Source of the DNA: a virus
DNA length: 62,237 nt
Strand: one strand, 5' to 3'
Virus record (IMG/VR): IMGVR_UViG_3300032289_001167
Location: 1 to 62,237 of that record
The notes beneath the pieces were generated by a model. That model was not told the origin of the DNA. It did not search any database and saw only the letters and a list, made by a program, of their open reading frames with translations. Made by a program: the position numbers and the translations under genes. This document shows positions 31,139 to 61,569 of the stretch, in pieces (the first letter of the stretch is position 1; each line of letters begins with the position of its first letter).

Positions 31139-31193
31139 GTAATACACCTTGTCTATCTGAACCTTAACTTTTTTTATGTTAGGGTGGAAATGT

Positions 31194-31667
31194 ATGTTAG
31201 ACAGAACCAAACGTCTGACCACCGCTATTGCGCTTCTTACAAGTTTACTTGTATCGCTACCAGTAGCCCAGGGTCAGGCTAATGCTAATGAAATGCAGAC
31301 AAAAATCGAAACAAAAGTTGCGGTTAAATCGATCGTAGCTATTGCTAAACAATATATCGGAACCCCGTACTGTCGGGGTGGGCACACTTCCAGATGCTTT
31401 GATTGCTCTGGATTCACACAATACGTATATAACCAACAGGGCATTAAGTTGCCACCGATTGTACACAGTCAGTACCGTATTGCTACAAAAATTACTGCGG
31501 CAAAAGCAAAGCCAGGAGACTTAGTGTTTTTTATAACTAGGCAGGGTTACGCTTACCATGTAGGAATCTATGTAGGTAATGGAAAGGTTATACATTCCCC
31601 TAAACGTGGTCATCACGTTCGAATAGAAAGTATCTGGACGTCTAACGTCCGCTATGGTAGAGTTTAA
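31194..31667 (+). CDS. Secreted NlpC/P60 endopeptidase
   Basis: 157 aa from ATG 31194, chosen because AGGGTGG lies 6 nt upstream and because the N-terminus becomes a clean signal peptide (MLDRTKRLTTAIALLTSLLV, cleavage after the ANA-type motif near residue 31). An in-frame ATG at 31176 is less likely. The NlpC/P60 domain shows the catalytic Cys in FDCSGFTQYV near residue 70 and His in YAYHVGIYVGNG near residue 121. A secreted D-gamma-glutamyl peptidase that would act on peptidoglycan from outside the membrane, in lysis or superinfection control. Confidence 0.82.
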   Translation: MLDRTKRLTTAIALLTSLLVSLPVAQGQANANEMQTKIETKVAVKSIVAIAKQYIGTPYCRGGHTSRCFDCSGFTQYVYNQQGIKLPPIVHSQYRIATKITAAKAKPGDLVFFITRQGYAYHVGIYVGNGKVIHSPKRGHHVRIESIWTSNVRYGRV

Positions 31668-31676
31668 TTTCTACCA

Positions 31677-31755
31677 GGGGCAGATTTGGTATCGACTAGC
31701 ATTAACTCCGCACGTCGGAAGTGTTAGGAATCGAGTTCGACTCTCGACTGCTCCA
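31677..31755 (+). ncRNA. tmRNA-like RNA lacking the mRNA domain
   Basis: 79 nt. The acceptor stem GGGGCAG (31677-31683) pairs with CTGCTCC (31748-31754) through a G3-U70 wobble, and A31755 is the discriminator base: the alanine identity set of tmRNA. The 5' part GATTTGGTATCGAC (31683-31696) matches the conserved tmRNA D-loop region (GATT.TGG.TTCGAC). The T-arm is TCGAG-TTCGACT-CTCGA (31731-31747). Where a tmRNA has P2, pseudoknots and tag frame, there is only a hairpin: TAAC TCCG, loop CACGT, CGGA, bulge AGT, GTTA (31703-31726). CCA is not encoded. It starts 10 nt after the NlpC/P60 stop and is followed by a small hairpin (31756-31773). A canonical tRNA does not fit: no D-stem and no 7-nt anticodon loop. 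Confidence 0.75.
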
Positions 31756-31834
31756 CTTGCAAGTAGAAGCAAGACCAGACATAGCAACTTTCTTTAGGTA
31801 AACTTAATACGTTGCCTTTAGGAGAGAACTGGCA

Positions 31835-57541: not shown

Positions 57542-58278
57542 TACGCACCTGCAAAAGTTTGTGTTGGGATAAGCATTATTACTGGTGAGAGTGGAGGATA
57601 AACCGTTCGGTGGTTCTCTCGGTCACAAGCAGACCACAACCTAAGTTGGGTAAGCTTGAGGACATCTTGGAACAGACCAGTAGTCTGATCGTCACTCTCA
57701 CCAGTAGTAATGGGATTAACCACGCGAGGTAAAGGTCGCAAGTTGAGACTCCTCCAATGCTCGCTTCGTCTAACGCGGTCTCCAATTTGAGGGAGACACC
57801 TCATAGATGAGCAAAGCGGAACGTATTTACCACGACCTTTACTCACCAGACACAGGCAAAATGCCCCTGAACGTGCGTGGTTAAAGGGATTAGTATCAAC
57901 AGAGAATAACTTACTACTACCAACCCTGACAACGCTAGGCGTGTACTTCGTGGTTCGAGTAGATACCGTTGTTGATACTAAGCTTGTTAGTAGGCGCAGA
58001 GGCACAGGCATTGTCGCAATATGCAAACGCAGGTCGCACGTTGCGCCTACTAAGCTTGTTAGTACGCCCAGAGGCTCAACCCCTACTAGTGAAGCCATAC
58101 CACTCTTACGCATAATGCGTTCAGGTAGGTATTCCGTTCGCAAGTGAGCGTTGGGCGTACTAAGTTTAGTAAGTGGCATAGGCGCAGGTACTTCTAGGAC
58201 TGAAAGGAAGTAAGTATCCATTATGGAAGTCCTTGCCGAGATTTCACCAGTCGGTTTAACGCCTATGCCACAAGTCAT
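57541..58278 (-). CDS. Doubtful 245-codon frame antisense to a structured RNA
   Basis: An open frame with GGAG 6 nt before the ATG; both ends fall in TAATG overlaps with neighbours, which favours translation. Against: the product (MTCGIGVKPTGEISARTSIM...) is Ser/Thr/Arg/Leu/Cys-rich and poor in Lys/Glu/Asp, unlike every neighbour. It has no recognisable fold pattern. Its internal LTSLV repeats are simply translated RNA hairpin arms. The DNA is dominated by long inverted repeats. It may be a fortuitous frame, or a genuine dual-use region. Confidence 0.3.
   Translation of the reverse strand: MTCGIGVKPTGEISARTSIMDTYFLSVLEVPAPMPLTKLSTPNAHLRTEYLPERIMRKSGMASLVGVEPLGVLTSLVGATCDLRLHIATMPVPLRLLTSLVSTTVSTRTTKYTPSVVRVGSSKLFSVDTNPFNHARSGAFCLCLVSKGRGKYVPLCSSMRCLPQIGDRVRRSEHWRSLNLRPLPRVVNPITTGESDDQTTGLFQDVLKLTQLRLWSACDRENHRTVYPPLSPVIMLIPTQTFAGA
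57574..58271 (+). ncRNA. Large multi-domain structured RNA (about 700 nt)
   Basis: Six consecutive long-range stems with almost no unpaired linker. P1 57574-57594/57692-57712, 21 bp. P2 57716-57725/57875-57884, 10 bp, enclosing P3 57728-57738/57833-57843, 11 bp, which encloses 57777-57783/57792-57800. P5 57890-57900/57971-57981, 11 bp. P6 57987-57998/58042-58053, 12 bp. P7 58059-58070/58152-58163, 12 bp. P8 58173-58184/58260-58271, 12 bp. Linkers are 3, 5, 5, 5 and 9 nt; two are identical GCTTG. Six G-U pairs (57579-57707, 57594-57692, 57728-57843, 57726-57874, 57999-58041, 58071-58151) would be A-C mismatches on the other strand, so the plus strand is the likely RNA. It resembles GOLLD/ROOL-type ornate phage RNAs in size and context. 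The promoter is not identified. Confidence 0.65.
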
Positions 58279-60149
58279 TAGAGACTCCGTAAGATGTTAC
58301 GAGCAACACTAACAAGCTCGTTAGGCTTGGAAACTAATTCAATAGAATGTGCGTGGTGGCGGTAACGCTTCATTGTGGCTTCCCTGTCCAGCACAGACTG
58401 TTCCATAATCCACTCACTACTACTAATGAATACAATCTGACTAATAGTGCCGTCAATATTGTTAATACGCTTAATAGTAGAGTCACACTCGTCAGAGCGT
58501 GACCACTCCCCGTCTGTGATTACGAATAACAACTTGGTCTTGCGCCTTGAGGACTCAAGTATCGCCTCGGCGTCAAGCAAAGCGTCAAGTGGGTCAGTAC
58601 CTCCACCGTCATACCAAAATCGGTATTGGCTAGTGGCACGTTCGTTACTTCCATAAACAAGCTTGGTCTTGTCACTAAACCCAATGACCGTAACCTTGCC
58701 GTCAATTTCCTCCAGCGCACGTTTGATCGCCCACATAGATTGAGAGACTTCCTTGATTACGTTGCCCATAGAGCCTGATGTGTCGCACATAATAACGGCT
58801 TCGATATTAAACTCGTCACGACCCTCACGCCACTCATCAAAGACCGTGTTGATATCGTTGATATCCATATTCATAACACGGTTGATATTGAGCCTACCAA
58901 CAGGCTTCTCAATGTCCCAATGTGGGTCGCTGTCAATACGAAGCTTGCTAAGTTCCTGACCAAAGGCTTTACTTGCCACGCGGTAAGCGTTATCTACTGG
59001 TAGCAATTCTGCTGTTGCCTTGAGGTCTGTACGACCTGCACGGTCAGACTCACGGATAGCAGAACGTAGTTGTCGAGCCTCGGTCTTGGCTTGCTTAGAC
59101 TTCATAACAGACTTGATAGCCTCGCGCACTACGTCAGCAAACTCCTTATCCATTTCGGTACGTTCCATAAGTGGGTCATATTCTTGAGACTCACCCTCGA
59201 CACCTGCACCTGCACCTGCACTCGGCTCGGCGTTGGGTGGGATATTCTCGGCTTTCTTGTCCATATTCTTAGCACGATTAGCAATATTGCTTTGCTTATC
59301 ATTACTTTCAGGTCTGCCAGACTTGAGCATTGGGCGTGAGCCACATTGTCCCTCGGTCTTATTCTTTGGGTCAGCAAGCTTGAGCAGGTTATGAAACTCA
59401 ACAATGAGATCGTAACCACGTTCGTAATCACTTGGGTAAGTAAGTAGTCGGTACTCATCTACGATACGAGCGACATTGTTAGTGTGAGTCGAGCCGTGCC
59501 GTGCCACATAGAGATCAGCAGATAGTTGGCGCACCTCGATAGGCAAGTAACGCCGACCTCGGATTAGAGGAAACGAGTCACTTGGGTCTGGGTTATCCAT
59601 AATGTAAGTCAAAACAGACTGGGTAAGTGACAGGGTAGTGCTTGGGAAACGCGCGGTCATAAGAGTTTCGATACGCAAGTCCTCAAGGATATTGAAAGAG
59701 GTTTGGTATCCACCTGATGTGACCTTGCGCCCAAACTCGGAGTTACCTCGAGGTGACCACAGGATATGAGCAACTTCGTGGTAGTTAATACCGTTAAGGC
59801 TAATGAGACTGTTATCGTCAATCTCGGCTAAGACGTTTGTGTTGAGATAGATAGTCTTGCCGTCATTGAACGCAGGTGCTTCACCCATTGACTCCATATT
59901 GCTAAAGTCACCAGCAGTAACGGTAATACTAGACTTGGTAAGAACACTATCCGCAGTCTGGTACACACCAGCAATAGCCTGAAACCTAGCAAGCTTCTTA
60001 GCTTGTTTAGCCACAAGGTATTCCTTGAGTTCGTCACGTTCGATCTGGGATAGACCCTCGCTAGAGTTGGTGCTGTTGTAGTCATACCAGTCTTGGTACA
60101 GGTTGCCCGTATCGGCAGACTTAGCAGGTTTCTTAGTTGGCATTACCAT
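58278..60149 (-). CDS. VWA-domain protein with HExxH motif
   Basis: 623 aa. INYHEVAHILW (HEVAH at 124-128) looks like a metallopeptidase-type zinc site, followed by NILEDLRIETLM. A charged, disordered linker (about 290-340) leads to a C-terminal von Willebrand A domain with MIDAS motif CDTSGSMG near 455, the Thr loop GGGTDPLDA and TDGEWS near 543. The architecture matches VWA partners of MoxR ATPases (CobT, YehP and DUF2201-like). GGAGG precedes the ATG, and the gene overlaps the ATPase gene by 17 nt, so the two act together. Confidence 0.85.
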   Translation of the reverse strand: MVMPTKKPAKSADTGNLYQDWYDYNSTNSSEGLSQIERDELKEYLVAKQAKKLARFQAIAGVYQTADSVLTKSSITVTAGDFSNMESMGEAPAFNDGKTIYLNTNVLAEIDDNSLISLNGINYHEVAHILWSPRGNSEFGRKVTSGGYQTSFNILEDLRIETLMTARFPSTTLSLTQSVLTYIMDNPDPSDSFPLIRGRRYLPIEVRQLSADLYVARHGSTHTNNVARIVDEYRLLTYPSDYERGYDLIVEFHNLLKLADPKNKTEGQCGSRPMLKSGRPESNDKQSNIANRAKNMDKKAENIPPNAEPSAGAGAGVEGESQEYDPLMERTEMDKEFADVVREAIKSVMKSKQAKTEARQLRSAIRESDRAGRTDLKATAELLPVDNAYRVASKAFGQELSKLRIDSDPHWDIEKPVGRLNINRVMNMDINDINTVFDEWREGRDEFNIEAVIMCDTSGSMGNVIKEVSQSMWAIKRALEEIDGKVTVIGFSDKTKLVYGSNERATSQYRFWYDGGGTDPLDALLDAEAILESSRRKTKLLFVITDGEWSRSDECDSTIKRINNIDGTISQIVFISSSEWIMEQSVLDREATMKRYRHHAHSIELVSKPNELVSVARNILRSL

Positions 60150-61569
60150 TGTTAAGCACCTCCATAACAGGCTCGGCAGGAGTGGAGTGAGCCAAACCTA
60201 GTTCCTCCTCAATGTTGTAGCGGTAGGTGTCAATAACTAACTTGACACTTGCTTGCTCGCGCATTGGGAATAGGTTGAGGTAGGCATAGATACCGTAGTC
60301 AATACCAAGACTGTTAATGTTACCCATTAGAGCGACAAGTGAACGAGTCGAGATCGGAGTCTGGATTTCCTCCTCCTCGAAACGGTCGCGTAATGAATTA
60401 GCCATTTCCAAGATTGCCTTACTTTTGATTAGTTTACCCTCAATGTCTGGGTCGTAAGGGAAGTCGAGGTGGTGTGTGAACCTATCGTTGAAAGCTTGGG
60501 ATAGTTCCCGAGTACCACGATAGCCAAGATTACCGTCAGCAACAATGAGCAGATCAGGGTGAGCCTTGACAACCTCCCCGTCTTTATCCGTTAGTTGGAT
60601 TTCACGGCGGTAATCTAATAGAGAATACAATTCCGAGGCGGTACGTTCAGGCATAAAGGTAATCTCACCGATAAGCAGGACTCCTCCGTTGCGTACCAAG
60701 TCTGTTATTGCCCCGTCTTGCCAATGGAAGTGACCGTCTGGGCTTGGGTTGTATCCACCAAATAGTTTCTTGGTATCCGTGCCAGCAGAGCAAGAGAAGT
60801 TGTAGTAACGGTATCCGCGAGCCGAGGCGTAAGCCATAACCGAGGAAGTCTTACCAGAACCAGCGTGACCAGTAATAAGCACGTTCTCATCATTACGCAT
60901 AGCAACGTCAAAGATATCAAAATCAGTAACATCACCTACGACCTTGCGGTTGATGTATTGCTTCGCCCACTTGATATCAGGCACACTTGCCAATTCCATT
61001 ACCAAGCTTGGTGTGGTGGTCTGGCGAGAGATAGCAGGTTGGTTAGGTACTGCCACGTTAGAAATTGTCGGGGTGACTGGATTGCTAACAGGACTATTAC
61101 CAAAGGCACGGTTAGGCACTAGGGCAGGAAACTCGATTGAGGTGTCCTTGTAACGGGAGTCGGTCAAGTAGATAGCAAGACTGCTATCAGCGTTCTCGAA
61201 ACGTGATACCAAGTCTGATACTAGATCGAAGTGGTTGAGAGTGTAATCGCCACCAAGCTTGGTAAGTTGATCGGAGGCGGTGGTGGTCTTGTATCCCAAA
61301 GTAGTTACCTTGCCACCTTGAATAGCAAAGTGGTCATTGTCGGTGAGACGGATAGCAACAGGGTTCTTAATGACACGGGTATTAGGTAGATCAGATAGAG
61401 GCGTTAGTGTCCAAGCCTCGGAACGACCACGCTTACCCGTACTGGTACGGTGGAATAATTGAATTGCGCCAATGGTGTAGTTTGGCACGATAATAGTTTG
61501 GTCAAGACCTGCTTCGCCATTGTCACCAATAGTCTCGGACAGGGACTCAACGTAGAGTGCGATTGTCAT
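60133..61569 (-). CDS. MoxR-type AAA+ ATPase
   Basis: 478 aa. The N-terminal 200 residues are a separate domain of unknown function. The AAA+ core has Walker A GHAGSGKTS near residue 233, pore-region LFGGYNPSPDGHFHWQDGAI, Walker B-like GGVLLIGEI near 297 (Gly-Glu instead of Asp-Glu), and sensor/Arg-finger segments (LIVADGNLGYRGTRELSQAF, NDRFTHHLDFPY). This is the MoxR/CobS/CbbQ layout. It heads the minus-strand operon, with AAAGGAAG before the ATG. Likely remodels a target through the adjacent VWA protein. Confidence 0.85.
   Translation of the reverse strand: MTIALYVESLSETIGDNGEAGLDQTIIVPNYTIGAIQLFHRTSTGKRGRSEAWTLTPLSDLPNTRVIKNPVAIRLTDNDHFAIQGGKVTTLGYKTTTASDQLTKLGGDYTLNHFDLVSDLVSRFENADSSLAIYLTDSRYKDTSIEFPALVPNRAFGNSPVSNPVTPTISNVAVPNQPAISRQTTTPSLVMELASVPDIKWAKQYINRKVVGDVTDFDIFDVAMRNDENVLITGHAGSGKTSSVMAYASARGYRYYNFSCSAGTDTKKLFGGYNPSPDGHFHWQDGAITDLVRNGGVLLIGEITFMPERTASELYSLLDYRREIQLTDKDGEVVKAHPDLLIVADGNLGYRGTRELSQAFNDRFTHHLDFPYDPDIEGKLIKSKAILEMANSLRDRFEEEEIQTPISTRSLVALMGNINSLGIDYGIYAYLNLFPMREQASVKLVIDTYRYNIEEELGLAHSTPAEPVMEVLNNGNAN

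Follow-up and report, generated by a model that had tools for sequence, protein, structure and literature searches.

Trans-translation is nearly universal in bacteria and, to our knowledge, little is known about how phages handle it. Mycobacteriophage DS6A carries a tmRNA that consists of the tRNA-like domain (TLD) only (PMC4131195, PMC11915505). This form is listed as a single case, and a 2025 tmRNA database holds nine "standard, no CDS" entries among 97,179 tmRNAs (PMC11915505). These reports describe a TLD-only RNA, similar to the one presented here, that strongly inhibits tmRNA in E. coli whether or not it can be charged, and suggest that titration of SmpB is perhaps the cause (PMC4131195, PMC11915505).

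The stretch of viral DNA analysed here (62,237 nt, IMG/VR record IMGVR_UViG_3300032289_001167; hereafter the window) holds tailed-phage genes and a 79-nt TLD-only tmRNA gene with a complete tmRNA TLD (Table 1). The Rfam tmRNA model RF00023 matches 31677–31758 (+) with 56.7 bits (gathering threshold 47, E=1.3e-19), the sole notable Rfam match in 62 kb, and the alignment spans the model ends (1–374) with its entire middle, the message domain, deleted. A covariance model (R1) of 12 viral elements from outside the window's own group recovers 31677–31755 at 80.3 bits (E=1.7e-19) and gives no second match in the window up to E=10. The initial annotation had proposed tmRNA-type anatomy (D region, T arm, A73 and the G3-U70 wobble) without an mRNA-like domain, and both the Rfam and the TLD-only model bear this out, G3-U70 and the discriminator A73 being in place. 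The 24-nt hairpin it described turned out to be a capped segment of 30 nt (31697–31726, between GAC and GGA), in which a 7-bp P2 leads, with an AAC bulge, into a cap hairpin of 4 bp with a 5-nt loop. The predicted fold contains the acceptor, P2 and T helices as expected (z=-2.1; 6 of 200 shuffles were equally stable).

Of the parts of a full tmRNA, the element retains the TLD with G3-U70, the tmRNA D region and the T arm (RF00023, R1). Resume codon, tag frame and stop are absent, the TLD halves lying only 30 nt apart, as are pseudoknots PK1–PK4, since the RF00023 positions between the halves are deleted. The anticodon arm with an Ala anticodon that would mark a tRNA-Ala is absent too, with the capped P2 in its place, and ARAGORN calls neither a tRNA nor a tmRNA in the window. 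A permissive Rfam scan found no message domain or permuted tmRNA piece elsewhere in the window. Directly 3' of the element stands CTTG; CCA is not encoded and must be added.

Table 1 Positions of the element, its parts and its upstream neighbour in the window, and of the release-factor domains in three carrier records
Feature	Position (strand)	Sequence	Basis or remark
NlpC/P60 protein (tail-type lysin)	31176..31667 (+)		PF00877, E 1.2e-27; phrog_329 minor tail protein
Whole element	31677-31755 (+)	GGGGCAG-ATTTGGTATCGAC-TAGCATT-AAC-TCCG-CACGT-CGGA-AGTGTTA-GGAA-TCGAG-TTCGACT-CTCGA-CTGCTCC-A	
Acceptor stem, 5' strand (incl. G3)	31677..31683 (+)	GGGGCAG	Partner 31748-31754; covariation
tmRNA-type D region	31684..31696 (+)	ATTTGGTATCGAC	Fits RF00023 consensus
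P2 helix, 5' strand	31697..31703 (+)	TAGCATT	Partner 31720-31726; covaries in 90 elements
A-rich bulge and cap hairpin	31704..31719 (+)	AAC UCCG CACGU CGGA	Replaces message domain; by fold
P2 helix, 3' strand	31720..31726 (+)	AGTGTTA	Covariation
Linker	31727..31730 (+)	GGAA	GGA conserved in 30/37 first-scan elements
T arm	31731..31747 (+)	Loop TTCGACT	
Acceptor stem, 3' strand (incl. U70)	31748..31754 (+)	CTGCTCC	Covariation
Discriminator A73	31755 (+)	A	
GGQ domain, L269	953-1315 (-)		
GGQ domain, L267	350-700 (+)		
GGQ domain, L268	291-638 (+)		

The stop codon of the NlpC/P60 gene lies 9 nt upstream of the element, with no promoter-like site between the two and neither promoter-like nor terminator-like sites around the element; processing out of a longer transcript is therefore probable, and co-transcription with the NlpC/P60 gene is likely. 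A 701-bp query region has no DNA similarity to known phages. The best matches of the window's DNA polymerase are those of phages GiJojo, Alone3, LuckySocke, pSt2308 and BRock (39–40% identity). The window virus is accordingly distantly related to that group of Streptomyces phages, and an actinobacterium is its probable host. In one closer relative (L049) the element is 97% identical and the remainder 72%, and in another (L068) the element shows three differences that leave all pairs intact (A-U becomes G-U, U-G becomes U-A, and one change lies in a loop), two of them pairing-preserving changes in P2. In both relatives a tRNA-Asn follows the element. The window has lost it and contains no tRNA gene (ARAGORN), so the element persists here in the absence of a tRNA array. 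Elsewhere, on the minus strand of the window, an AAA ATPase gene (60133–61569) adjoins a gene whose protein has a weak VWA-domain match (58278–60149), in a MoxR/VWA-like arrangement.

A first scan of IMG/VR, for the D region and T loop at short spacing, returned 98 stretches, about half of them full TLDs and the others chance-like with poor acceptor pairing, serving as an internal control. A second viral pattern gave at least 119 stretches; as it fixed U70-C-C-A73, G3-U70 was never counted from this pattern by itself. Two cap-based patterns fixed the D region, cap hairpin and GGA only, leaving acceptor and T arm free. Overall, at least 150 distinct sequences, forming at least 118 clusters at 85% identity, were found on at least 193 viral contigs, at eight bacterial-genome loci, in five named phages and in the window. 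Bacterial genomes hardly ever carry it: across 84,980 of them (257 billion bases) the pattern matched 10 times, and both bacterial neighbourhoods that were checked (Cellulosimicrobium L201 and Cellulomonas L204) contain phage-type genes; within one actinobacterial order, a strong match was present in 1 of 297 genomes, the seed genome itself.

Sought in related phages, the element was found in relatives L049 and L068 and in named Streptomyces phages. The cultured phages that carry it are Streptomyces phages BRock, Shaeky, LuckySocke and pSt2308 and Stenotrophomonas phage Jojan60, in all five of which it lies unannotated among tRNA genes; GiJojo and Alone3 were matched by similarity alone. ARAGORN was the tool used to annotate BRock and Shaeky, and because it gave no call for their elements, these were overlooked. 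In a control set, R1 scores the five named-phage elements at 72–79 bits and no tRNA or full tmRNA above ~24; in whole genomes and some phages its other matches score up to ~35 bits. For 38 of 152 elements, about a quarter, there are tRNA genes on the same strand less than 1 kb away. The neighbours differ by locus: one clade has capsid and portal genes, another has an HNH-type gene, and replication genes occur elsewhere (names mostly sequence-based). With such variable neighbours, the element resembles an independent RNA gene.

Four phages considered as TLD-only carriers (Synechococcus S-CAM1 and S-CAM3, Pseudomonas PA_L9 and Mycobacterium Reindeer) were rejected, as their tmRNAs are full-length or permuted; the tRNA region of Reindeer also contains a GOLLD RNA (206 bits, L211:4762-5176). 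At three loci (L106, L140 and L170) ARAGORN calls longer tmRNAs (~320–340 nt), each ending at the TLD-only element, and for L106 and L170 Rfam favours the compact form over the long call. Eight elements (L006, L010, L025, L065, L117, L133, L158 and L200) form a 60–65 nt class in which P2 lacks the cap and is a simple small hairpin, and a further class (L119, L121 and L135) has other inserts between the TLD halves, with abundant GACGA-like stretches.

P2 positions 1–5 form standard pairs in 88–100% of elements compared to 41–46% after shuffling, and the T-stem and acceptor pairs show a covariation pattern like that of P2, well above shuffles, with the T stem 98–100% paired in 97 elements. Conservation of the D region in relatives is not independent evidence, because the search patterns fixed it. 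In the cap-based scans, acceptor and T arm helices were present in 41/41 distinct elements, G3-U70 in 40/41 and A73 in 40/41. The initial annotation had made its reading depend on homologues keeping G3-U70 and the T-arm pairing, and they do. Further to that, the first scan, with the acceptor left free, gave G3-U70 in 35 of 37 elements, or 35 of 36 real ones; of the two exceptions, L011 is a false match and L072 a real G3-C70. The cap is more alike among elements than P2, which varies freely: related CC..GG stems with C-N-N-G loops recur, often as CCG-CNNG-CGG, and the cap may bind something. A hidden short tag in the cap (readable in the window as ARRKC-stop) was rejected, as tag reading frames occur at chance level across the 97 elements (18, compared to 15.2 in shuffles).

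We suggest, as the likeliest reading and with somewhat better than even confidence, that the phage-encoded TLD-only tmRNA is a host-charged decoy that suppresses host trans-translation. Host tRNA-processing enzymes would cut the RNA out of a longer transcript, after which it would receive CCA and then alanine from host AlaRS, and the charged RNA could bind host EF-Tu and SmpB. It would then compete with host tmRNA for SmpB and stalled ribosomes while offering no tag template, the consequence being less tagging and less ordinary rescue during infection. SmpB was found in none of 50 carrier records, nor was a second full-length tmRNA match. Inhibition is reported with or without charge, yet G3-U70 is strongly kept, so that either a decoy must use its charge or the RNA has another function; were SmpB titration alone sufficient, alanine identity would not be needed. 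The strict G3-U70 in these sequences suggests that charging is important to the phage. If so, entry into the ribosome, as a charge-dependent trap or for tagless rescue, is favoured over passive titration. We regard a benefit of the decoy to the phage as a candidate only.

Tagless rescue is the main rival, although we consider it rather unlikely. Here the charged TLD would enter stalled ribosomes with host SmpB, where the nascent peptide would pass to the alanine of the TLD; release or hydrolysis of the resulting peptidyl-TLD would then free the ribosomes and leave the products without a tag for proteolysis. Such a role would account for the strict conservation of G3-U70, A73 and the T arm, and has been suggested for the message-less mitochondrial tmRNA, which, with SmpB, is thought to handle incomplete mRNAs (PMC11915505). 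A stand-alone GGQ release-factor domain (115–120 aa) is encoded in 3/50 carrier records, and in L269 it shares the element's strand and lies ~0.4 kb away; however, the association with carriers is not significant (0/36 controls passing the cut-off). Peptidyl-tRNA hydrolase, of which the host has one, was found in 0/50 carrier records, and the effect reported for a TLD-only RNA in E. coli is inhibition.

Less probable still is that the element serves as some other tRNA-like module, for instance as a sponge for AlaRS or EF-Tu, as a donor of alanine, or as a processing mark through which the flanking transcript is matured. The proximity of about a quarter of the elements to tRNA genes and, in one phage clade, a position just upstream of the capsid gene would fit a module of this kind, but the tmRNA-specific D region, the GGA linker and the strong alanine identity exceed what a processing mark needs, and no conserved neighbour enzyme able to use alanine was found.

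We hold it very improbable that the element is a functionless remnant of an attachment site or host tmRNA gene, even though tmRNA genes are frequent integration sites of phages and islands (PMC11915505). A new capped P2 joins both TLD halves, compensatory changes are seen across elements, and the changes in close relatives are structure-neutral. Tyrosine integrases occur in only 8/50 carrier records and within about 1 kb of the element in one; the count covers tyrosine integrases alone, and Shaeky has an annotated serine recombinase about 1.5 kb from its element. An attachment-site remnant was rejected on the compensatory changes, the new capped P2 and the few nearby integrases, and is largely refuted by covariation. 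That the element is half of a two-piece tmRNA with its message part elsewhere is hardly credible, for although phages can carry permuted tmRNAs (PMC9004378; here S-CAM1, S-CAM3 and PA_L9), a single short hairpin carries the 5'-TLD ahead of the 3'-TLD, whereas a permuted gene has the opposite order, and there is no other tmRNA-like piece in the window, where this reading is refuted, and no second full-length match in the 50 records.

The host-charged decoy thus remains our preferred reading. We extend it tentatively, and with clearly less confidence, to an overlooked and widespread viral RNA class that would take over host ribosome rescue, with the charged TLD and the conserved capped P2 blocking tagging, in some phages alongside a GGQ release factor of the phage; the virus would in this way counteract ribosome stalling induced by stress or defence. 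That a common viral gene keeps the parts for ribosome entry and alanine charging but has no template for the tag suggests that viruses actively control ribosome rescue. The elements are natural, evolved candidate inhibitors of this process, and the cultured Streptomyces and Stenotrophomonas phages that carry them make the question directly testable.

A TLD-only tmRNA is not new in kind, with precedents in one phage and in organelles; the large family is unexpected, and no published account of a broad viral TLD-only family was found among openly licensed papers. The element shares with the bacterial one-piece tmRNA (RF00023) the acceptor with G3-U70, the D region, the T arm and the base of P2, but lacks resume codon, tag frame, stop and pseudoknots, and its P2 is closed by a cap hairpin. 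The full-length tmRNAs of Mycobacterium phage Reindeer and of cluster BE1 Streptomyces phages are likewise phage-borne among tRNA genes, whereas these retain the message domain (the Reindeer RF00023 match spans 371 nt, and BE1-type tag peptides are annotated). The message-less mitochondrial tmRNA of jakobids and oomycetes (RF02544; PMC11915505, PMC4131195) is also a TLD without a tag frame that relies on SmpB from elsewhere; it is, however, mitochondrial with nucleus-encoded SmpB, while the element described here is viral with bacterial hosts. The DS6A RNA, compared by description only, is likewise phage-encoded and without a tag reading frame, but is a single listed case against at least 150 distinct sequences here, nearly all of them viral. 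What is new is how widely the element occurs among viruses, that its alanine identity and its cap are conserved, and that usable laboratory phages carry it.
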